This document shows positions 4,776-42,932 of a stretch of DNA of 64,000 bases, in pieces. The stretch is from positions 1 to 64,000 of the forward strand of contig JAAYNQ010000048.1 of the NCBI GenBank assembly GCA_012520725.1. The letters are read 5' to 3'. The notes beneath the pieces are model-generated. The model had not been told where the DNA came from and searched no databases. It saw only the letters and a list, made by a program, of their open reading frames with translations. This DNA is from Syntrophomonadaceae bacterium (GTDB lineage: Bacteria > Bacillota > Syntrophomonadia > Syntrophomonadales > Syntrophomonadaceae). Position 1 is the first letter of the stretch. Every line of letters begins with the position of its first letter. Both the position numbers and the translations under genes were made by a program.

Positions 4776-4869
4776 ATCAGCAAATATCCCAAAAGGATAA
4801 TTGAATGCTATAATAAAAATAGAGATGAATGGTCGGAAAAGTATATACCTATGGGGGGGATATGGGGAA

Positions 4870-7653
4870 ATGACTGCACCTTTATTGCTTCATCGTGATT
4901 CTACTGCCGCCCAGGCTTCAGATTTTTTACTCCAACATCAAATAGATGGGGTAAGGGTAATTGACGATAATCATGATGTAGTAGGCTTGATTGATTGTAA
5001 ACACCTGCTGAAAGTACTCTCAGGTGGCCTGCCTTGTGATACACCTATCCATAATATAATGTCCCGGGACAGGGAAAGCCTACGCATGCTGGATGAATTA
5101 CAATACACCCTGGACAAGTCCATTGATAGCGATGGAAACAATGGACTGGAAGAGGAAAACCGGGCTTTGTATAATCTCACCATTGCTTTTTTCGATATAC
5201 TGCAAAAGAAACAGCAGGAATGGGAGGTTTGTCTAAATTCTATATACAATCCCCTGGTAGCAGTGGATGATCAGGAACGAATCACCCTATTCAACCGATC
5301 CTTGGAAGAGGTATCGGGCATATCTGCTGAAGATGCTTATGGGAAAAAGATAAACGAAGTCTTTGATATGAGCGGATTGGGCAAAATTCTTAAAAGTGGT
5401 GAGAAAGAAAAACTGCAAAGAATTAAATACCAGGGAAAGACTCTGCTGTCCAATCGAGGGCCCATTACAGTAGATGGCAAGATTACCGGTGCGGTAGCCT
5501 GTTTACAGGATATATCCGAATTGGAAAGCGTTGTACAAGAACTGGAAGTAACCAAGAAACTCAATCAACAGTTGGATGCAATTTTTGAATCTTCCTACGA
5601 TGGTTTATATATAACTGATGGTGAAGGCAACACCCTGCGTCTGAATAAGGCCTTTGAGCGCATAATGGGAGTTTATGCGGAAGAATGCGTAGGACGCAAC
5701 ATGGCTGACTTGGTTAAGGAAGGCTATTTCACCAGATCTGGAACTTTATTGGTAATGGAAAGAAAACATTCGGTTACTATACCATTGCAATCCAAAACCG
5801 GCAAGAATGCCCTGGTTACCAGCAATCCCATTTTTGATGATGAGGGCAATATTGTTTTAATAGTTACCAATGTACGGGATTTAACTGACTTGATTAAACT
5901 GGAGCAGGAGCTAGAAGATGTAAAAGTATTGAGGGAACGGGAGTTTGAAGCAATATTGGAATCCTCCTTCGATGGATTATATATAACCGATGGTCAAGGC
6001 AAAACACTAAAGGTAAATAAAGGCTTTGAACGCATTACCGGCATAATGAACGAAGATATATCTGGACGCTATATGCAAGATTTGGTTAGAGATGGTGTCT
6101 ACACTGATTCCGGCACTTTGCTGGCTATAGAAAAAAGGGGAACAGTTACCCTTCCGCTTAAGGCCAATAATAAAGATATACTGGTTACCAGCACCCCCAT
6201 TTTTGATGACGATGGGCAAATAATGATGGTGGTTACCAATGTTAGAGACATGACGGAATTAAAGACTTTAGAACATCAACTGGAGCAGGTCGAAGGATTA
6301 AGACGCAAAGAACTGGATGCCATCATAGACTCATCCTATGATGGGCTGTATATCACCGATGGGAGCGGTAATACCTTGCGACTCAACCAGGCTTTTGAGC
6401 GTATTATGGGAGTTACCTCTGACGAATGCGTCGGGCGCAATATGGCTGAACTGGTCCGGGAGGGTGTATTTACCCGTTCTGGAACCCTCCTGGCTATAAA
6501 ATCCAGGCAGACAGCAACTATTACTTTACAGTCCAAAACCGGTAAAAGTGCACTGGTTACCAGTAATCCCATTTTCGACGAGGATGGCTGCATTATACTG
6601 GTAGTTACCAATGTGCGTGATATTACCGAACTGAATGACCTGCAGGGCAAAGTTGAACAATTGGAAGGTTTGAGCCGTATGTACCAGGTGCAGCTCAATC
6701 AATTAAAAAGCTCCAAAAGCTGCATACTGCACTCTGACAAAATGAGAAATCTCTTGAAAATGGTCAATCATGTATCAACGGTTGACTCTACTGTACTTAT
6801 CCTGGGTGAATCGGGAGTAGGAAAAGAGGTCATCGCAGACACCCTGCATGCCAGCAGTCCCAGGGCCAATAAGCCATTTATTAAAGTCAATTGTGGTGCC
6901 ATTCCTGGTAATTTACTGGAATCAGAATTGTTTGGCTACGAACCTGGGGCCTTTACTGGAGCCAGTAAAAGCGGCAAAGCCGGTATGTTTGAATTGGCTG
7001 ATGGTGGTATTCTGTTTTTGGACGAAATAGCGGAAATGCCGATGGACCTGCAGGTCAAGCTTTTACGAGTATTGCAGGACAATAAGATTATGCGAATCGG
7101 AGGAACCCGTGAAATAACAGTAGACGTGAGGATCATCGCCGGAACCAACCGTAACATGCAGGACATGGTTGCTAAACAATTATTCCGCAAGGACCTGTAT
7201 TACCGGCTTAATGTGGTACCTATTTTCGTACCTCCCCTACGGGAACGTAGAGAAGACATACCCGTTTTGAGCAAGCATTTTTTGGAAAAATTTAATCGCC
7301 GGCACGGTATGAATAAGCGGCTTTCAGCTGAGGTGTTGAAGAATTTTATGTCCTATGATTGGCCCGGCAATGTAAGGGAATTAGAAAACCTCATTGAACG
7401 CCTGGTGGTAACTACTCAGCATGATATGATCAGTGTTGATGACCTGGCAGCCTGGTCAGAATTGGAAGCTGCCTCTAAACCCCGGGTAGAGATTGTGCCT
7501 TTACATATTGCCCTGGAAAATACTGAGCGTAGCCTTTTGCAAGAAGCTTTTTCATTATATAATTCCACCTATGCTGTAGCTAGAGTATTAGGGGTTAGCC
7601 AGCCTACTGTGGTACGAAAGGCGGCCAAATATGGAATCGCTAAGGCCAAGTAG
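4870..7653 (+). CDS. Sigma-54-dependent transcriptional activator with CBS and four PAS domains
   Basis: Bacterial enhancer-binding protein. Order from the preferred start: a CBS-like region (residues 1-65), a divergent PAS (about 115-220), then three closely similar PAS domains whose equivalent points lie at 5587, 5959 and 6328 (123-124 residue period). An AAA+ domain follows with Walker A GESGVGKE (from about 6805), the sigma-54 contact loop GAFTGA (about 6950) and Walker B LFLDE (about 7010). A Fis-type helix-turn-helix ends the protein (VARVLGVSQPTVVRKA). There is no receiver domain, so control is presumably by small-molecule or redox signals at the PAS/CBS part. ATG 4870 is chosen because GGGGGGA precedes it; upstream in-frame codons (4801 TTG, 4825 ATG) lack a ribosome site. 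It is convergent with the butyrate operon, whose promoter at 15.2 kb looks sigma-54 dependent. Confidence 0.93.
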   Translation: MTAPLLLHRDSTAAQASDFLLQHQIDGVRVIDDNHDVVGLIDCKHLLKVLSGGLPCDTPIHNIMSRDRESLRMLDELQYTLDKSIDSDGNNGLEEENRALYNLTIAFFDILQKKQQEWEVCLNSIYNPLVAVDDQERITLFNRSLEEVSGISAEDAYGKKINEVFDMSGLGKILKSGEKEKLQRIKYQGKTLLSNRGPITVDGKITGAVACLQDISELESVVQELEVTKKLNQQLDAIFESSYDGLYITDGEGNTLRLNKAFERIMGVYAEECVGRNMADLVKEGYFTRSGTLLVMERKHSVTIPLQSKTGKNALVTSNPIFDDEGNIVLIVTNVRDLTDLIKLEQELEDVKVLREREFEAILESSFDGLYITDGQGKTLKVNKGFERITGIMNEDISGRYMQDLVRDGVYTDSGTLLAIEKRGTVTLPLKANNKDILVTSTPIFDDDGQIMMVVTNVRDMTELKTLEHQLEQVEGLRRKELDAIIDSSYDGLYITDGSGNTLRLNQAFERIMGVTSDECVGRNMAELVREGVFTRSGTLLAIKSRQTATITLQSKTGKSALVTSNPIFDEDGCIILVVTNVRDITELNDLQGKVEQLEGLSRMYQVQLNQLKSSKSCILHSDKMRNLLKMVNHVSTVDSTVLILGESGVGKEVIADTLHASSPRANKPFIKVNCGAIPGNLLESELFGYEPGAFTGASKSGKAGMFELADGGILFLDEIAEMPMDLQVKLLRVLQDNKIMRIGGTREITVDVRIIAGTNRNMQDMVAKQLFRKDLYYRLNVVPIFVPPLRERREDIPVLSKHFLEKFNRRHGMNKRLSAEVLKNFMSYDWPGNVRELENLIERLVVTTQHDMISVDDLAAWSELEAASKPRVEIVPLHIALENTERSLLQEAFSLYNSTYAVARVLGVSQPTVVRKAAKYGIAKAK

Positions 7654-7773: not shown

Positions 7774-9120
7774 CTAAGCTTTTTTGTTGATTTTGCGCCA
7801 GATATTCATCTTCTCAGCTTCTTTAATCAGCTCATCCCTGAATTCCGGATGGGCTATTTCAATCAAAGCTTCGGCTCTTTGCCAGGTGCTCTTCCCTTTC
7901 ATATTAGCTATTCCATATTCGGTGACTATCATATGAGTAGCGGTTCTGGGATCAGTTACAATGGCACCGGGACTTAATATGGGCCGAATCCTGGAATTGA
8001 CTTGACCATCTTTAGAGGTAATGGTAGAAGGTAGGCAAATAAAGCTCTGACCACCTTTGGATTTGTAAGCTCCTTCGACAAAGTCCAATTGTCCACCGGT
8101 ACCGCTTATATGCCTGGTACCTACACTCTCTGCGCATACCTGCCCAAATAGGTCTATTTCAATACAGGCATTGATGGAAACAAAGTTATCCAGTTGAGCT
8201 ACCACCCAGGGGTTGTTGGTATAATCCACTGAGTATGAGGCACAACCGGGGTTGTTATCCAAAAAGTCATACAATTCCTTGCTACCCATGGCAAAAGAAT
8301 ATACTTGTTTATACTTGTCCAGGTTTTTCTTGGCTCCGGTAATTTTACCGGCTTTGGTCATTTCCAGATAGGCATCTACGTACATTTCAGTATGAACACC
8401 CAGATCCTTCAAATCTGAGTTTGCTACCATGGTTCCAACTGCATTAGGGATGCCCCCAATTCCTAACTGAACGCAGTTGCCGTCGTACATTTTTTCAATG
8501 ATATATGAAGCTATTTTTTGGTCGGTTTCACTGGGAGGCGCTGCACCCAATACCAGCAGGTCAGGATTGCTGCCTTCAATAATGTAATCCACCTGGGTTA
8601 CATGAACGCATTCCTGATTGCCACCCAAGCAGCGGGGCATTTTCTCATTGACTTCAATAACTACATAATCGGTATTTTCCATGGCCGCCCAAGTGGTAGC
8701 CGCACTGGCTCCAAAATTGAAGTAGCCATTTCTATCCATGGGGGTACACATCACTACGGTTACGTTATTAGGAATTATATCCTTCCGGGTCATCATGGGA
8801 TTTTCATGGAACTTCATGGGTATATAATACAGGTTTTTACCTATAAAGTTCTTGTCGTGAGCTGCTACATGCCAGCTGTTCCAGGTAAAGATTTCTCCAC
8901 TGGGATCTGCTTCCGCAGTAAAATGCTGATAGGCCCCAATATCGCATTTGATTTTTACATCATATAGTTCATCTTTTCTTTGAGCTAGAGCCTTATCAAA
9001 ATCATAGGAACAGTTAACTCCAAAGGCGTATTCTACCCAATCTCCTGGTTCAACTAATTTAGCTGCTTCTTCAGCACTTACTAATTTGCTTTTATACTCT
9101 GCCAACCACTTTTGATACAT
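7774..9120 (-). CDS. Acetyl-CoA hydrolase/transferase family CoA-transferase (butyryl-CoA:acetate or 4-hydroxybutyrate type)
   Basis: Family I CoA-transferase-like protein, 448 aa, full length for the butyryl-CoA:acetate / 4-hydroxybutyrate CoA-transferase group. The GIGGIPNAV motif is at 221-229, the catalytic glutamate is most likely Glu245 in HTEMY, and the SGTGGQLDF motif lies near 340. In a butyrate oxidiser it would activate butyrate with acetyl-CoA at the start of the pathway; substrate specificity is inferred from context. It is the last gene of the leftward operon, with ribosome site GAAGGGGG upstream. It follows a truncated paralogue by 48 nt. Confidence 0.88.
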   Translation of the reverse strand: MYQKWLAEYKSKLVSAEEAAKLVEPGDWVEYAFGVNCSYDFDKALAQRKDELYDVKIKCDIGAYQHFTAEADPSGEIFTWNSWHVAAHDKNFIGKNLYYIPMKFHENPMMTRKDIIPNNVTVVMCTPMDRNGYFNFGASAATTWAAMENTDYVVIEVNEKMPRCLGGNQECVHVTQVDYIIEGSNPDLLVLGAAPPSETDQKIASYIIEKMYDGNCVQLGIGGIPNAVGTMVANSDLKDLGVHTEMYVDAYLEMTKAGKITGAKKNLDKYKQVYSFAMGSKELYDFLDNNPGCASYSVDYTNNPWVVAQLDNFVSINACIEIDLFGQVCAESVGTRHISGTGGQLDFVEGAYKSKGGQSFICLPSTITSKDGQVNSRIRPILSPGAIVTDPRTATHMIVTEYGIANMKGKSTWQRAEALIEIAHPEFRDELIKEAEKMNIWRKINKKA

Positions 9121-9168: not shown

Positions 9169-9816
9169 TTATACTGCCCAACTTCTTGTTATAACGCTTT
9201 GCTCTTCGTAGCGAGGGTGTTTACCGGGTTCATTAACTCGTTGTAGTAATTCGTCATTATTGCTGCCTACAATCATATCCACCTGTGATATATGAATACA
9301 CTCTTGATTTTTATTTCTGCCTTCCAGAATACGCTCATTAATTTCCAGAATGACATAATCAGCTTTTTCATAGTACGGCCTGAAATGGTGCTTCTGAGAT
9401 ACCCTACTGTCAAACCAAAAGTATCCATCTTTATCCATGGGACTGACGGTAGCCATAAAGATATGGTGAGAACTATCCTTTTTCTGCGAACTGGCGAATT
9501 TAGAATAGCTTCTCCCTTTTGTTCCTCCTTCATGAACTTTTTCTCTTTCCTTTTTCCCCGGATACATACCCTCATAAAATCTGAAGTGCTCCTCGCTAAA
9601 GTCTGCATCCATAGTGTAATAACCGCAGCTAAGATCATTACAGATTATGTCCACTCCCAGCAGTTCATCTTTCCTCATAGCCAGGGCACGATCAAGTTCA
9701 TTTATACTGCATATTCCAAAAGCATAGATCACTCGATCACCAGACTTGACTACTTTAACTGCTTCTTCGGCGAAAGTAAATTTACGGGCGTATTCATCTG
9801 TATATTTCAAGGTCAT
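9169..9816 (-). CDS. Truncated CoA-transferase paralogue (N-terminal domain only)
   Basis: 215 aa, aligning by eye with the first ~195 residues of the 448-aa neighbour: AEEAVKVVKSGDRVIYAFG against its PGDWVEYAFG region, SPMDKDGYFWF against TPMDRNGYFNF, and NQECIHISQVD against NQECVHVTQVD. It stops where the second domain, carrying the catalytic Glu and the GTGGQ motif, would begin. Only 48 nt separate it from the next gene, so no frameshifted remainder is hidden. The ribosome site is strong (GGAGGT 9 nt before ATG). The middle has a lysine-rich divergent stretch (about 85-110). It is either a decaying duplicate or a non-catalytic partner; it cannot be an active transferase by itself. Confidence 0.75.
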   Translation of the reverse strand: MTLKYTDEYARKFTFAEEAVKVVKSGDRVIYAFGICSINELDRALAMRKDELLGVDIICNDLSCGYYTMDADFSEEHFRFYEGMYPGKKEREKVHEGGTKGRSYSKFASSQKKDSSHHIFMATVSPMDKDGYFWFDSRVSQKHHFRPYYEKADYVILEINERILEGRNKNQECIHISQVDMIVGSNNDELLQRVNEPGKHPRYEEQSVITRSWAV

Positions 9817-10009: not shown

Positions 10010-11842
10010 TTACATTAACGCAGCTTCCGGTACGTCAATGGCACTTCTGTCGCCGGCCTTCATAGCCTTCTCGAATGCAAAGACGTCGGTCACATGGTTC
10101 ATGATATAGAACTTGGCACTGGCAATTTTGCCTTTGTAGAAATCAGCATCATAATGGTCATCGCCTAGTTCAGCCAGCTTCTTGGCTGCCAGAATGGCCT
10201 GGGAAAGCATAAGCTTGCCACAGTAGACTCTGGCCCCTGAATGCATGGTCCGAGTGGCAAAAAGCTGTCTCATTTGCTTATCGCCGGCGGTCCAGGCAGC
10301 ATTCATTTCAACAATATTCTTGAATGCAGCCATGGCTTCTGTCATCATATCAAATTCAGCTGCGAATTCATCAGTTCTCGCATTGCTTATGAAATCATCG
10401 ATTTCTGCTAACCATTTTCTGAAGGGGGCTCCGTCTTTCATGGTGAATTTGCGTCCGATATAGTCCTGGGACTGGATGAAGTTGGTGCCTTCCCAGATGC
10501 CGTGGATAACACAATCTCTGTATAGCTGGGCCGGGGCATACTCTTCCATAAAGCCATAGCCCCCGTGACACTGGATGGCTTCTCCGGTGAGGATCCTGGC
10601 CATATCAGAGGAGTAGGCCTTGCACAAGGGGTTGTTGATGGCGAACATATCACCATAAAATTCTCTCTCTTCTGGGGTTGCAGCATCTACTTCCAGGTCA
10701 CGGTATAGATAGGAAGTATATATCAAAGCTCTTATAGCTTCCATTCCAGCTTTCTGGTACATCAGCATGCGGCGTACGTCTTCGTGTTCAATAATACGAA
10801 CGCTGGGGCCTTTGGGATTGGTGGAATGTTTGCTCTGTACCCGAATTTTGGTGTAGTCCAGAGCTGCGTAGTAGGCAGAAGTTATGCAGCCCAGGGTGAA
10901 CAGACCGGTATTCAGACGCTCTTCGTTCATATAGGCGAACATCTGTGACATACCTACACCACGTCCATCTACCGGTTCTTTTTCTCCTACTATCCAGCCA
11001 TAACAATTGTCGTTTTCACCCATGGCCAGGGTCAGGGTGGAAGAACCATGGATACCCATCTTGTGTTCAATACCCACGGAAGTTACATCATTCCATGCTC
11101 CCATGGATCCATCTTCATTAACCCAGAATTTGGGCACGATGAACAGAGAGATACCTGCAGTGCCTTCCTTTGCACCCGGGGTCTTGGCCAACATCAGGTG
11201 GATAATATTTTCTGCCAGATCATGGTCACCTGAGGTTATAAAGCACTTCTGGCCTTTGAGCTTATAGAGACCGGGAGTATCGGTGGGGAAGGCCTTACTT
11301 TGTACCGCACCCACTTCAGATCCTGCTCCGGGCTCGGTCAGACCCATGGTTCCGCCCCATTCACCAGTGAACATCTTGGGCAGGAACATATCCTTTTGTT
11401 TTTGAGTGCCATAGTCCTGCAGCACGGTGGTAGCACCCTGAGTCAGACACCAGAACATTACTATTGCCGGTGATGCAGCAGATTGCATCTCCAAAATGGG
11501 AGCATACCAGGCCAGAGGTATTTTACCCTCGCCCCGGAATCCGAACTGGGGTCCTAACTCGGCATCCATAACAGTTTTGTATACGTTCTTGAAAGAATCA
11601 GGAGTTACAACAGCATGCTCTTCGCCCCCTACAAAGGTAGCTCCGATCTCATCGGCATCTTTGTTGGCCGGGCACATAACGTCACGGCAGACCTTATAGT
11701 TTACATCCAGGAAATTATCGATATCATCGATAGCATAATAATCTTTATAGGCATCCAGGGACAGAAGCTTGTCCATAGGCAACCATTCTTTTATAACGAA
11801 CTTGATATCACGCAGATTCATTAGAAAATTGTTATGTGGCAT
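10010..11842 (-). CDS. Acyl-CoA dehydrogenase (large, ~610 aa type)
   Basis: FAD-dependent dehydrogenase for the butyryl-CoA to crotonyl-CoA step of beta-oxidation. Middle-domain FAD motif GLTEPGAGSEVG (about 160-172), C-terminal motif QCHGGYGFMEEY, and the IWEGTN segment whose Glu is the usual catalytic base. At about 610 aa it is longer than the ~380 aa short-chain enzymes; the extra C-terminal ~130 residues match the acyl-CoA dehydrogenase C-terminal-like extension. The start at 11842 (MPHNNF) has GAGGGGG at good distance; an in-frame ATG at 11857 has no such site. Electron transfer would need EtfAB, not encoded here. Butyryl-CoA specificity is inferred from the operon. Confidence 0.92.
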   Translation of the reverse strand: MPHNNFLMNLRDIKFVIKEWLPMDKLLSLDAYKDYYAIDDIDNFLDVNYKVCRDVMCPANKDADEIGATFVGGEEHAVVTPDSFKNVYKTVMDAELGPQFGFRGEGKIPLAWYAPILEMQSAASPAIVMFWCLTQGATTVLQDYGTQKQKDMFLPKMFTGEWGGTMGLTEPGAGSEVGAVQSKAFPTDTPGLYKLKGQKCFITSGDHDLAENIIHLMLAKTPGAKEGTAGISLFIVPKFWVNEDGSMGAWNDVTSVGIEHKMGIHGSSTLTLAMGENDNCYGWIVGEKEPVDGRGVGMSQMFAYMNEERLNTGLFTLGCITSAYYAALDYTKIRVQSKHSTNPKGPSVRIIEHEDVRRMLMYQKAGMEAIRALIYTSYLYRDLEVDAATPEEREFYGDMFAINNPLCKAYSSDMARILTGEAIQCHGGYGFMEEYAPAQLYRDCVIHGIWEGTNFIQSQDYIGRKFTMKDGAPFRKWLAEIDDFISNARTDEFAAEFDMMTEAMAAFKNIVEMNAAWTAGDKQMRQLFATRTMHSGARVYCGKLMLSQAILAAKKLAELGDDHYDADFYKGKIASAKFYIMNHVTDVFAFEKAMKAGDRSAIDVPEAALM

Positions 11843-11884
11843 TATAATCCCCCTCATTTTAATTATATTTCTCAGTAATTGGAT

Positions 11885-11937: not shown

Positions 11938-13131
11938 TTAATCAAGTATCTGCTCTATAATTAAGGTTGTACCCATGCCACCGCCGATACATAAGGTGGC
12001 TAAACCATATCTGGATTTTCTCCTCATCATTTCATAACAAAGGGTAACCAGTATTCTAGCTCCGGATGCACCGATGGGATGACCTAGGGCTACCGCACCA
12101 CCGTTAACATTGACCTTTTCCATGTCTCCCCATCCCATGTCGCGGCCTACTGCAATAGACTGGGCGGCAAAGGCTTCGTTGGCTTCAATTAAATCGATAT
12201 CATCAACGGTCAGTCCGGCTTTGGCCAGAGCTTTTTGACTGGCTGGAACAGGTCCTACACCCATGATCTTGGGATCAACCCCGCCGGAAGCATAGCTTAC
12301 TATTCTAAACAAGGGTTTTACTCCCAATTCTTTGGCTTTATCAGCGGACATAACTACAAACGCGGCTGCGCCATCATTGATGCCAGAGGCGTTGCCGGCA
12401 GTTACAGTGCCGCCATCCCGTTTGAAGGCGGGTCCCAATCTGCCCAGGGATTCTGGAGTGCTTTCCCGGGGGTCTTCATCGGTATCGAAGACTATTTCTT
12501 TCTTCTTTTGTTTTACCACTACAGGAACGATTTCATCTTTAAAGCGTCCTTCTTTAATAGCGGCCAAAGCTCTCTGCTGGCTTCTCAGTGCAAATTGATC
12601 CTGCTCTTCCCGGGTAATTCCGTATAATTCATTAACATTTTCTGCGGTAATTCCCATATGGTAGTTGTTAAAAGCTTCCCACAGACCATCCTTGATCATC
12701 AGGTCAATCAGGGTGCCATTGTTCATTCTATATCCATAGCGGGCATTGGGCAGGGCAAAGGGAGCCATGCACATATTTTCCACCCCACCGGCTACTACTA
12801 CATCAACATCACCGGCTTTGATCAGCTGGGCGGCCAGGCTAACTGCTCTTAAACCGGAACCACAAACTTTATTAATGGTAAAAGCAGTAGCGCTTTCAGC
12901 AGGAATGCCAGCTTTGATGGCACACTGCCGGGCTATATTCTGGCCCAATCCGGCCTGCAGAACGCAACCGAAGATTACTTCTTCAACTACTTCGGGGGCA
13001 ATGCCGGCTCTCTTCATGGCTTCTTCCATTACCAGAGCTCCCAAAACATGGGATGAAGTATCTTTCAGAGTTCCATTAAATGAACCCACCGGGGTACGGC
13101 ATGCGCTTACAATTACAACTTCTCTCGACAT
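11938..13131 (-). CDS. Acetyl-CoA C-acetyltransferase (thiolase)
   Basis: Cleaves acetoacetyl-CoA to two acetyl-CoA in butyrate oxidation. Nucleophile Cys90 in NKVCGSG, then the NEAFA motif, His351 in [10 protein letters not shown] and Cys381 in CIGGGMG complete the thiolase active site. 397 aa, typical. ATG 13131 (MSREVV) is preferred because GAGGGTGAAG precedes it; an in-frame codon 24 nt earlier would add an untypical leader. Third gene of the crt-hbd-thl-acd operon, 72 bp after hbd. Confidence 0.96.
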
Positions 13132-13203
13132 AAATTCTTCACCCTCTCTAATCATTTGGTTAATTATTAAAATGCAATAAGAATATAGTCCTAAACTGCA
13201 GAT

Positions 13204-14046
13204 CTACTTGTAGCTAAAGAATCCCTCTCCGGTCTTACGTCCCAGTTTGCCAGCCCGAACCATCTTAACCAGCAAGGGGCAGGGACGATATTTGGGATCG
13301 CCAAATTCTCTGTACAGAGTTTCCATGATACTGAGACAAATATCCAGTCCAATCATATCGGCCAAAGCCAAAGGCCCCATGGGATGCCCGGCTCCGAATC
13401 TCATGGAGGTGTCTATATCTGCAGCATTAGCTACCCCTTCCATCAGGGCATACATACCTTCATTTAACATGGGAATAAGTAAGCGGTTTACTACAAAACC
13501 TGGAGCTTCATTGATTTCTACCGGAGCCTTGCCCATTTTTTCTGACAGTTCCTTGATGGTGTCAAAAGTGGCTTGGCTGGTATTGGCTCCCCGGATTATT
13601 TCTACCAGTTTCATAGCTGGTACCGGGTTAAAGAAATGCATTCCAATTACCTTGTCCGCTCTGCCGGTGGCGGCAGCAATTTCGGTAACACTCAATGCTG
13701 AGGTGTTGGTGGCCAGAATACATTCTGGTTTGCATATAGCGTCCAGTTCCTTAAAGATGCTTTTCTTGATATCCATTACTTCCAGAGCTGCTTCAATTAC
13801 CAGATCACATTCTGCTGCTGCTGCCATGTCTACGGTACCTGAAATCCGTCCCATAATAGCTGCTTTATCTTCAGCGCTCATTTTACCTTTGTCAACGTTC
13901 TTGCCCAGGAGTTTATCAATTCCGGCTATACCCCGATCAACAAATTCCTGCTTGATATCCCGTACAATTACTTCGAAGCCGGCCTGAGCAGCAGTCTGAA
14001 CAATACCTGCTCCCATGGTGCCTGCACCAAGTACCATTATTTTCAT
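13204..14046 (-). CDS. 3-hydroxybutyryl-CoA dehydrogenase
   Basis: NAD-dependent oxidation of 3-hydroxybutyryl-CoA to acetoacetyl-CoA. The Rossmann motif GAGTMG is at residues 7-12. The [16 protein letters not shown] segment carries the catalytic His, and [12 protein letters not shown] supplies the conserved Glu-containing hinge. The C-terminal 3HCDH domain ends with TGEGFFSY. 280 aa is normal for the Hbd family. Lies between crt and thl on the same strand; operon gaps of 41 and 72 bp. Confidence 0.96.
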
Positions 14047-14087: not shown

Positions 14088-14870
14088 TTATTTACCGGTG
14101 AAATTAGCTTTGCGCTTTTCAATAAAAGCGCCCATTCCTTCTCTCTGATCCGCAGTGGCAAAGCAAAGGCCGAAGGCATCAGCCTCTATGGTCATACCGC
14201 GGTTAATATCGGTTTGCAGGCCTTCATTGGCAGCGGCTTTACAAAGTCTAACCGCTATCTGCCCTTTAGCCAGGATCCTTTTGGCAATAGCCTGGGCAGC
14301 GTTCAACAGTTCCTCCGGTGCCTGTACGGAATTCACCAAACCCACCCGTAAAGCTTCCTCGGCTCCTATGACATCAGCGGTATAGAGCAGTTGCTTGGCC
14401 ATACCAGCCCCAATTAAACGAGCCAGACGCTGGGTACCACCAAAACCGGGTATAATTCCTAAACCCACTTCTGGTTGTCCAAATTTAGCATTGCTTGATG
14501 CGATACGAAAATCACAACACATAGCCAGTTCGCAGCCACCGCCGAGAGCGAATCCATTTACTGCAGCGATTACAGGTTTTTCCATGGTTTCGATCATCAT
14601 AAATACCTGCTGCCCCAATGCCGCAAAATTTCTGGCTTCCATGGCCGACAAGTTTTGCATATAGGCTATGTCAGCTCCAGCCACGAAAGACTTATCACCA
14701 GCACCGGTAATAATCAGCACATCTATGGAGTCGTCTTGAGCAATGTTGCCAATAGCGTCTTTCAGCTCCAACAAGGTATCCTGATTAAGAGCATTAAGCG
14801 CTTTGGGTCTGTTGATGTACAATGTTGCTATTCTATCCTCTTTTTCAAGCAACAGATTCTCGTAGGTCAT
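14088..14870 (-). CDS. Enoyl-CoA hydratase / crotonase
   Basis: Hydrates crotonyl-CoA to 3-hydroxybutyryl-CoA. Crotonase-fold signatures: AGADIAYM (oxyanion region), NGFALGGGCELAM and QPEVGLGIIPGFGGTQRL, holding the two expected glutamates. 260 aa, standard length. First gene of the leftward butyrate operon; ribosome site GGGGGAGG just before ATG. Upstream lies a roughly 340-nt leader with two inverted repeats and a sigma-54-type promoter at 15219-15234. Confidence 0.96.
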   Translation of the reverse strand: MTYENLLLEKEDRIATLYINRPKALNALNQDTLLELKDAIGNIAQDDSIDVLIITGAGDKSFVAGADIAYMQNLSAMEARNFAALGQQVFMMIETMEKPVIAAVNGFALGGGCELAMCCDFRIASSNAKFGQPEVGLGIIPGFGGTQRLARLIGAGMAKQLLYTADVIGAEEALRVGLVNSVQAPEELLNAAQAIAKRILAKGQIAVRLCKAAANEGLQTDINRGMTIEADAFGLCFATADQREGMGAFIEKRKANFTGK

Positions 14871-15040
14871 AAACCTCCCCCCTCCAAGTATTGTTCAGAA
14901 CAACTTAGTCGGCTTAATCCGACTGTAGAATTTGCTTTCCTTTCTTTCCCCCCCTTTCCTCATTGATTTTCGTAATGTATATAAATATAATAGGAAATAT
15001 GCGACTGGCTATCCTTAAGTTAGTACAGGGACTCCTTCCA

Positions 15041-15080
15041 CTTTTTTTGACCAGGTCCAAATTTACCTGGTCAAAAAAAG
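15041..15080. repeat. Perfect 16-bp inverted repeat in the crt leader
   Basis: CTTTTTTTGACCAGGT (15041-15056) and ACCTGGTCAAAAAAAG (15065-15080) with an 8-nt spacer. The T run is in the 5' arm and the A run in the 3' arm on both strands, so it does not have the layout of an intrinsic terminator. It could be a protein operator or an RNA stem about 170 nt before crt. Confidence 0.8.
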
Positions 15081-15087
15081 AGGGGGT

Positions 15088-15152
15088 CTACTGTTATATA
15101 GCGAATAAAAGGGTGTGAGTGGTAAAGGGGCACGACCGCTTTATAACAGTAG
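15088..15152. repeat. 16-bp inverted repeat with 33-nt loop in the crt leader
   Basis: CTACTGTTATATAGCG (15088-15103) and CGCTTTATAACAGTAG (15137-15152) are complementary with one mismatch. It is only 7 bp from the neighbouring 40-bp repeat. In the leftward transcript it would be the first structure, starting about 55 nt after the predicted start site. Confidence 0.75.
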
Positions 15153-15218
15153 ATAATAATGAGAAAATGTGTTAATGGGATTATGATATAGTTATGTTGC
15201 GCATCTGCTTAATACTCA

Positions 15219-15234
15219 AGCAATAAACATGCCA
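15219..15234 (-). promoter_or_regulatory. Sigma-54 promoter of the butyrate operon
   Basis: Minus strand TGGCATG-TTTA-TTGCT: GG at 15233-15232 and GC at 15221-15220 are exactly 10 nt apart, as sigma-54 -24/-12 elements require, and the flanking bases match TGGCA and TTGC. Expected start near 15208, about 340 nt before crt. No comparable SigA promoter facing crt was clear, although an AT-rich stretch at 14975-14995 (minus strand) could hold a -10. Confidence 0.72.
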
Positions 15235-15319
15235 AGAGGACAAACTTATAGTTTTTTGTCCCCAGACGCCTAAAATTCGAGCTTCTTATATTCCACCGCT
15301 CCAGCTTCTTCCTGCTCGT

Positions 15320-15354
15320 GATTCATTATTGTATTGTTTTCCGATTCATTATTG
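15320..15354. promoter_or_regulatory. Direct repeats, candidate enhancer (UAS) for the sigma-54 activator
   Basis: GATTCATTATTG occurs at 15320-15331 and again at 15343-15354, 23 bp apart (about two helical turns). The second copy extends to ATTCA-N4-TGAAT, an inverted repeat. Their centre is about 130 bp upstream of the predicted start site, the usual position for enhancer-binding protein sites. Confidence 0.5.
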
Positions 15355-15636
15355 AATTACTCTCGTTTTTGGCCTGAGTTTTTCCCAATAATTAAGCTGC
15401 CGGACAGCTATGTTAAGCCTTTTTCCGTTCTGGCTGTCGATACAATATTGCATCATTAGAGCCTGGCTACTAAACTGTCATTATCTAATCACTCCTACCC
15501 ATCATTAAAATCTCCCCCAGGAGCAGATAATAGGAATAAGTACTTTACCTGTATTTGCCGACAGGTTAAAATTGTATGGTGTGCCCATTCATATAAGCGT
15601 AATTACAGTTTTTTTTGTGAAGACAGGAGTGAAAAA

Positions 15637-15882
15637 ATGAGAACATTGGTAGCTACTATGATGGCTAATTCGAAAGGAAAGAATATATTCTGCTCAAGCA
15701 GTAAGGTCAGCGAACAACAAATGAGGATAATTCGTAATACTGACTGGTCTGAACTTGAAGAAATAGGGTTTACCTTTATAAACCTCACTTCACCTGAATA
15801 TCCTAATATTAGGGGAAAAGCTATATTCTTTGAGGGACATCTGGATGAGATGGGAAGGGCCTTAAGGAGCATTGACAGGTAA
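15637..15882 (+). CDS. Small hypothetical protein, 81 aa
   Basis: Not recognised. The ribosome site AGGAGTG 6 nt before ATG supports translation. The protein is soluble, mixed alpha/beta by eye, with one Cys (about residue 19) and a C-terminal acidic/basic segment (EGHLDEMGRALRSID). It is divergently placed relative to the butyrate operon control region and followed by the dispersed repeat at 15.9-16.1 kb. It might be co-regulated from the same intergenic region, but nothing in the sequence shows a function. Confidence 0.6.
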   Translation: MRTLVATMMANSKGKNIFCSSSKVSEQQMRIIRNTDWSELEEIGFTFINLTSPEYPNIRGKAIFFEGHLDEMGRALRSIDR

Positions 15883-42511: not shown

Positions 42512-42757
42512 AATAAAAAAAGCTTTGTCCCTAAGGGACGAAAGCCTGCTTCCGCGGTACCACCCAAATTAATCAGACTTCACCAGTCTGATTCACTCAT
42601 AGCTTTTAACGGTAGCCACCGGTTAGATCTACTCTAATTTCAATCCACTGCTCCCAGGTGAATTCTTCTGTGTCTTTCCCTAGCTGTACTTTCAGTCGCT
42701 GATACCGCCTCCCTGAAGGGAAAAGTAATCACAGTTTACTTGTCCTGTTCATCGCAT
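42512..42757 (-). promoter_or_regulatory. T-box riboswitch controlling pheST
   Basis: Minus-strand leader with a Stem I start of GATGAACAGGACAAGTA type (about 42757-42740), the T-box sequence TGGTACCGCG (42562-42553) and a downstream terminator: GCTTTCGTCCC / GGGACAAAGC followed by TTTTTTTATTTT (ending about 42512). The likely specifier is TTC (42662-42660, in GAATTCACC), matching Phe. Uncharged tRNA-Phe would stabilise the antiterminator and allow pheS transcription. Confidence 0.93.
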
Positions 42758-42932
42758 TTCTCATATTGCTACTGGGTAAGCAGCATTTTATACAATAAAT
42801 AGTAGGCGATGCATCCAGATGTTTCGAATAGCTGCCAGTATAAATCAGCTTGAGCTATCATCATGGGTTCACCCTCCGCTCTCATTACATGACTCTCAGT
42901 ATCCCGCTTCCATGGGCAATTATCAGACAGGT

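Follow-up and report, generated by a model that had tools for sequence, protein, structure and literature searches.

What controls the genes of butyrate oxidation in a Syntrophomonadaceae bacterium, and does their control end with the initiation of transcription? The question is raised by a stretch of 64,000 nucleotides, referred to here as the window, from a genome of 2.64 Mb. Its minus strand carries an operon whose first gene is crt, encoding a short-chain enoyl-CoA hydratase (14088–14870). The genes that follow encode 3-hydroxybutyryl-CoA dehydrogenase (hbd, 13204–14046), acetyl-CoA C-acetyltransferase (thl, 11938–13155), a 615 aa acyl-CoA dehydrogenase (10010–11857), a 215 aa CoA-transferase paralogue comprising the N-domain only (9169–9816) and a butyryl-CoA:acetate CoA-transferase-like protein (7774–9120). 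The paralogue has a similarly truncated length (213–215 aa) in four relatives and is, therefore, not a recent pseudogene. The same operon is found in named Syntrophomonas and Syntrophomonadaceae genomes, which makes Syntrophomonas the probable genus of the host. In genome G059, which appears to be that of S. wolfei, it matches the Swol_1932–1936 cluster (PMC3582634). Published proteomics is mixed as to how strongly the orthologous genes respond: some of the S. wolfei enzymes were called constitutive on butyrate and crotonate (PMC3582634), whereas two of the set were detected only in coculture (PMC4324140).

Two other features of the window can be mentioned. An 81 aa open reading frame on the plus strand (15637–15882) has no Pfam or NCBIfam match, is 85–90% identical within the genus and is syntenic with tyrS in several genera; it is likely to be a genuine small gene that diverges from crt. 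A T-box leader (Rfam RF00230, 116 bits) is located at 42531–42761 on the minus strand.

Predicted promoter and activator-binding sites

A sequence-only reading of this DNA had placed a GG-N10-GC element on the minus strand, facing crt. The element, TGGCATGTTTATTGCT, is present at 15219–15234, has GG and GC 10 nt apart in a TGGCAYR-N4-TTGCW context and is the sole exact match to TGGCAYGN4TTGCW in the window. Its motif match and its conservation in orthologues identify it as a putative −24/−12 promoter of σ54, with transcription predicted to start at about 15208. The whole genome contains 12 matches to the strict pattern and a single match to the reversed-pattern control, so the strict pattern probably marks real promoters in most cases; the proteins downstream of some of them, read by eye, are CoA-transferases and an electron-transfer flavoprotein. 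The same reading had asked for rpoN in the genome and for conservation of the element in relatives, and both were found. There is one rpoN copy (PF04552, E = 7.9e-65), and the element is kept upstream of orthologous operons in the host genus (loci L078–L081) and in the family, always 250–430 nt from a first gene that is crt, a CoA-transferase gene or thl.

Farther upstream, the 12-mer GATTCATTATTG occurs at 15320 and 15343, that is, 23 bp apart and 110–145 bp before the start predicted from the −12 position, as the sequence-only reading had described. It had not been recognised that both repeats are ATNCA-N4-TGNAT palindromes, nor that the genus has a third copy, some 96 bp upstream of the pair. 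The proximal predicted activator site, ATACAATAATGAAT (15321–15334, minus strand), is centred at about −119 and the second, ATTCAATAATGAAT (15344–15357, minus strand), 23 bp from the first, at about −142; both centres fall within the 80–150 bp range expected for sites of σ54 activators. The distal site, ATGCAATATTGTAT (15440–15453, minus strand), lies at about −238 and is kept in the genus. The 23 bp spacing of the pair recurs in most species compared. Dinucleotide shuffles of the upstream region gave a pair at this spacing in 0 of 1000 trials, and shuffling produced three exact sites in 0 of 500. A pair with zero mismatches occurs once in the genome, at the crt promoter. The next-best pair has one mismatch and is of the ATGCA type; it belongs to contig C193, where the single other activator of the same subfamily is encoded nearby. 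As judged from these comparisons, a σ54 promoter with activator-binding repeats very likely drives the butyrate-oxidation genes.

The neighbouring activator

The gene converging on the far end of the operon (4801–7653, plus strand) encodes a PrdR-like σ54 activator. Domain searches and motifs give the architecture CBS-PAS(x4)-AAA+-HTH, with a PF00158 match of 235 bits, a GAFTGA motif, four PAS stretches and a Fis-type helix–turn–helix domain (HTH_50; VSQPTVVRKAAKYGI). The sequence-only reading had described a σ54 activator with CBS and PAS sensing domains; the AAA+ domain and the PAS stretches are present, and the CBS domain is marginal in this protein, just below the Pfam cut-off, and above the cut-off in two orthologues. 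The best NCBIfam match is PrdR (NF041552), the σ54 activator of proline reduction, and covers the C-terminal PAS-AAA-HTH part. Its score of 530.8 bits is below the cut-off of 795 bits, and the protein is, therefore, not PrdR; it also differs in having extra tandem PAS domains and other targets. The orthologues range from about 820 to 1074 aa in length, apparently because tandem PAS repeats have been gained and lost. The domains suggest that the signal sensed by the CBS/PAS part would be a ligand or a redox cue.

The linkage of activator and operon is conserved in relatives, and across genera the recognition helix of the activator changes in step with the type of palindrome. The helix reads SQP[TS]VVRK where the sites are ATTCA- or ATACA-like and NQST[VI]VRK where they are ATGCA-like; every locus that has ATTCA-type sites and a readable activator shows an SQPT helix. 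The rule emerged from a subset of the loci; L129, examined afterwards, combines ATGCA sites with an NQST helix, as predicted. The co-variation ties the neighbouring activator to the palindromes and constitutes the strongest computational evidence that it would be the regulator. The proposal of the sequence-only reading that this neighbour controls the operon thus gains support from synteny, from the uniqueness of the site pair and from the helix–site correspondence, including the L129 prediction. In the mechanism proposed, the activator would bind the palindrome pair some 120–140 bp upstream of the start, as well as the distal third site, and would open σ54 polymerase at the −24/−12 element; the crt-hbd-thl-acd-CoA-transferase message would then start at about 15208.

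A second activator paralogue, which has an NQST helix, is found close to an ATGCA-type palindrome pair of its own at loci L133 (genome G000, contig C193, 24821–24857) and L040. These probably represent a parallel σ54 regulon.

A conserved structured leader RNA

In the promoter alignment, conservation climbs sharply at the predicted start and lasts for about 135 nt. This block (15073–15208, minus strand), absent from the sequence-only reading, constitutes a leader which reads, from 5′ to 3′, as an unpaired and nearly G-free stretch, a 17-bp hairpin and a C/U tract. A covariance-model match extends over 15075–15208 (E = 1.1e-18, this sequence being a training member of the model). The hairpin (15087–15153), supported by covariation counts and by folding, has a stem of 17 positions and a 31-nt C-rich loop. 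It is followed directly by CCCCCTCTTTTTTT (15073–15086), a tract that takes the form of C4–5 plus U5–8 in the family. A second long hairpin, U7-GACCAGGT...ACCTGGTC-A7 (15042–15079, minus strand), is seen in the host genus; the two leader hairpins together have a fold z-score of −6.7.

Within the genus, the leader is 91–96% identical, compared with 49–80% for crt third codon positions and 39–73% for the flanks. For distant species pairs, the upstream region is 39–46% identical, the rest of the 5′ UTR 43–49% and crt third codon positions 49–55%; the crt coding sequence as a whole reaches 77–80%, and the leader stays at 91–96% with its unpaired and loop bases included. Conservation of the leader thus exceeds that of the downstream coding sequence. 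Outside the genus the leader has a different sequence, with a hairpin at the equivalent place followed by C4–5 and U5–8. What is conserved across genera is CCCCCUUA and the C/U tracts; the loop sequence is not conserved and the loop size varies.

For the assessment of covariation, 15 leaders from six genera were aligned by sequence only, without fitting to the structure. In this alignment, 92% of the cells of the stem can pair, and double-sided changes occur in 7 of the 17 pairs. The covariation score is 0.397; shuffled alignments give 0.192 and slid controls no more than 0.138, so the compensatory changes go beyond both, as expected of a structured leader. RNAalifold finds the same stem unprompted. 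On this comparative evidence there is little doubt that the leader forms a genuine structured RNA, and the predicted promoter, activator sites, activator–site pairing and RNA structure can each be regarded as well supported by sequence comparison.

Distribution of the leader

A covariance model built from the 15 leaders, of which the promoter was not a part, was searched over 54 genomes of the family. Beyond the training members, 14 new copies were fetched and read, and all 14 lie just downstream of a −24/−12 element; since the promoter was not in the model, this association is independent support. The genes after the new copies, read by eye, are crt, thl, hbd or those for a CoA-transferase or a hotdog-type thioesterase. 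In the S. wolfei-like genome, two copies are identified with confidence: the first precedes crt, the second a thiolase gene taken to be Swol_2051. An enlarged model of 29 sequences, with an alignment fitted to the structure, has double-sided changes in 11 of 17 pairs; a strict-filter search with it gave no match among about 290 other Bacillota genomes. A further match of the first model, at L162 (E = 0.87), lacks both promoter and hairpin and was dismissed as chance.

The hairpin is not a general feature of σ54 leaders: it is missing in the promoter-bearing relatives L024, L025, L112 and L129 and in the thl-acd paralogues L006, L007 and L022, and in the genome of the window the model finds one copy among the 12 strict σ54 sites. 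Rfam leader and riboswitch families resemble it as conserved structured 5′ leaders before metabolic operons; they differ in that none reaches its gathering score in this region, where the sole Rfam matches are to microRNAs and chance-like, so membership of an Rfam family was rejected. A limited search of the open-access literature returned no description of the leader, which appears to be undescribed so far.

Possible roles of the leader

The leader would exert its effect once transcription has begun: it may gate elongation or translation, or it may protect the message. That it controls elongation or termination is a tentative proposal. The leader contains little G and, apart from the hairpin, is mostly unpaired; with Rho and Hfq encoded in the genome, factor-dependent termination or protein binding is plausible. 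An intrinsic terminator at the hairpin was rejected: C4–5 stands between the stem and the U run, so that the arrangement of an attenuator, a G+C stem with an immediate U run, is not found there, and no terminator was called at this place. A small hairpin, AGTCGGATTAAGCCGACT (14907–14924, minus strand), lies upstream of the crt ribosome site. Its equivalent at L080 is followed by a T run and resembles a terminator, and an attenuator is, therefore, possible at this hairpin.

Two other candidates were discarded. Pairing of the leader 5′ end with the crt ribosome-binding site is seen in minimum-energy folds; within the genus it is no better than in shuffles (p = 0.34–0.62), and own partners pair no better than foreign ones, some support being present only in other genera. 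The second candidate is an upstream ORF, or leader peptide, that would follow the AAAGGGGGG tract. In 18 of 22 leaders, this G tract is found 56–101 nt upstream of the start codon, with a weak shuffle control; here it is represented by AAAGGGGGGG (14948–14957, minus strand), upstream of crt. Nearly all leaders of the family have such a tract, typically at some 80–100 nt, and these include leaders without the hairpin; no ORF follows it, and the leaders inspected have no conserved start codon.

The reading put forward, with somewhat less than even confidence, is that the leader represents an undescribed cis-regulatory RNA family, restricted to Syntrophomonadaceae and built into the σ54 promoters of β-oxidation operons, where it would provide a second layer of control after initiation, dependent on Rho or a protein or sensing a metabolite, over the enzymes of syntrophic fatty-acid oxidation. 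Its main rival is a leader that serves mainly as a passive 5′ stabiliser of the mRNA for very abundant enzymes, with no switch and with all control exerted by the activator. Such a role is plausible, if rather doubtful: the strong stem is close to the 5′ end, the S. wolfei homologues rank with the abundant proteins (PMC4324140, PMC3582634), and there is no riboswitch-like junction and no constant size of the hairpin loop. However, conservation above 90% of the unpaired segments and the loop in the genus exceeds what a protective stem needs, and so does the retention of CCCCCUUA and the C/U tracts across genera.

The block might also be a separate σ54-dependent small RNA acting in trans, with crt transcribed by read-through. 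Small RNAs of this kind exist elsewhere, Vibrio Qrr being an example, and conservation beginning at the start site, the C-rich unpaired loop and the presence of Hfq would suit one. This is unlikely, given that no canonical terminator follows the hairpin, the loop is not conserved between genera and all copies found precede genes of acyl-CoA metabolism.

Alternative routes of transcription

Expression mainly from a SigA promoter, with the σ54 site minor, is improbable. Two SigA-like matches are present on the minus strand (15416–15388 and 15011–14984), both weak, with 9 of 12 positions; the σ54 elements, unlike their surroundings, are kept across genera. Action of another σ54 activator at the crt promoter is highly improbable, since, of the 18 strong activator domains encoded in the genome, only that of the 4801–7653 protein is accompanied by the SQPT helix that goes with ATTCA-type sites, and it is this neighbour that keeps its synteny with the operon.

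Relation to known systems

Control by σ54 of a crt-first operon was predicted for Clostridium in 2019, with CrbR as the activator (PMC6615313). The two systems share a predicted σ54 promoter, multiple activator sites and a crt-first operon for C4 acyl-CoA metabolism. They differ in that the Clostridium pathway runs toward butyrate synthesis, and the available portion of that article mentions neither Syntrophomonas nor a leader RNA. The operon contents also differ, with a 615 aa acyl-CoA dehydrogenase and no etfAB or maoC here. A genome-scale survey reported σ54 enrichment at β-oxidation genes in Clostridia and Bacilli, with acyl-CoA dehydrogenase, thiolase and hydratase among the predicted targets (PMC12316311); it differs in naming no Syntrophomonas and giving no activator sites for a crt operon and no leader RNA. 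The predicted promoter adds a syntrophic oxidiser to the known σ54/crt theme, and here both the activator and its predicted sites are specified; the leader RNA is the new element.

In methane-forming ecosystems, the syntrophic oxidation of butyrate is a bottleneck step whose switching is poorly known. With a specific activator, its predicted sites, a promoter and a conserved RNA at the transcript start now named, this regulation becomes directly testable, and S. wolfei-like genomes carry two copies of the leader.
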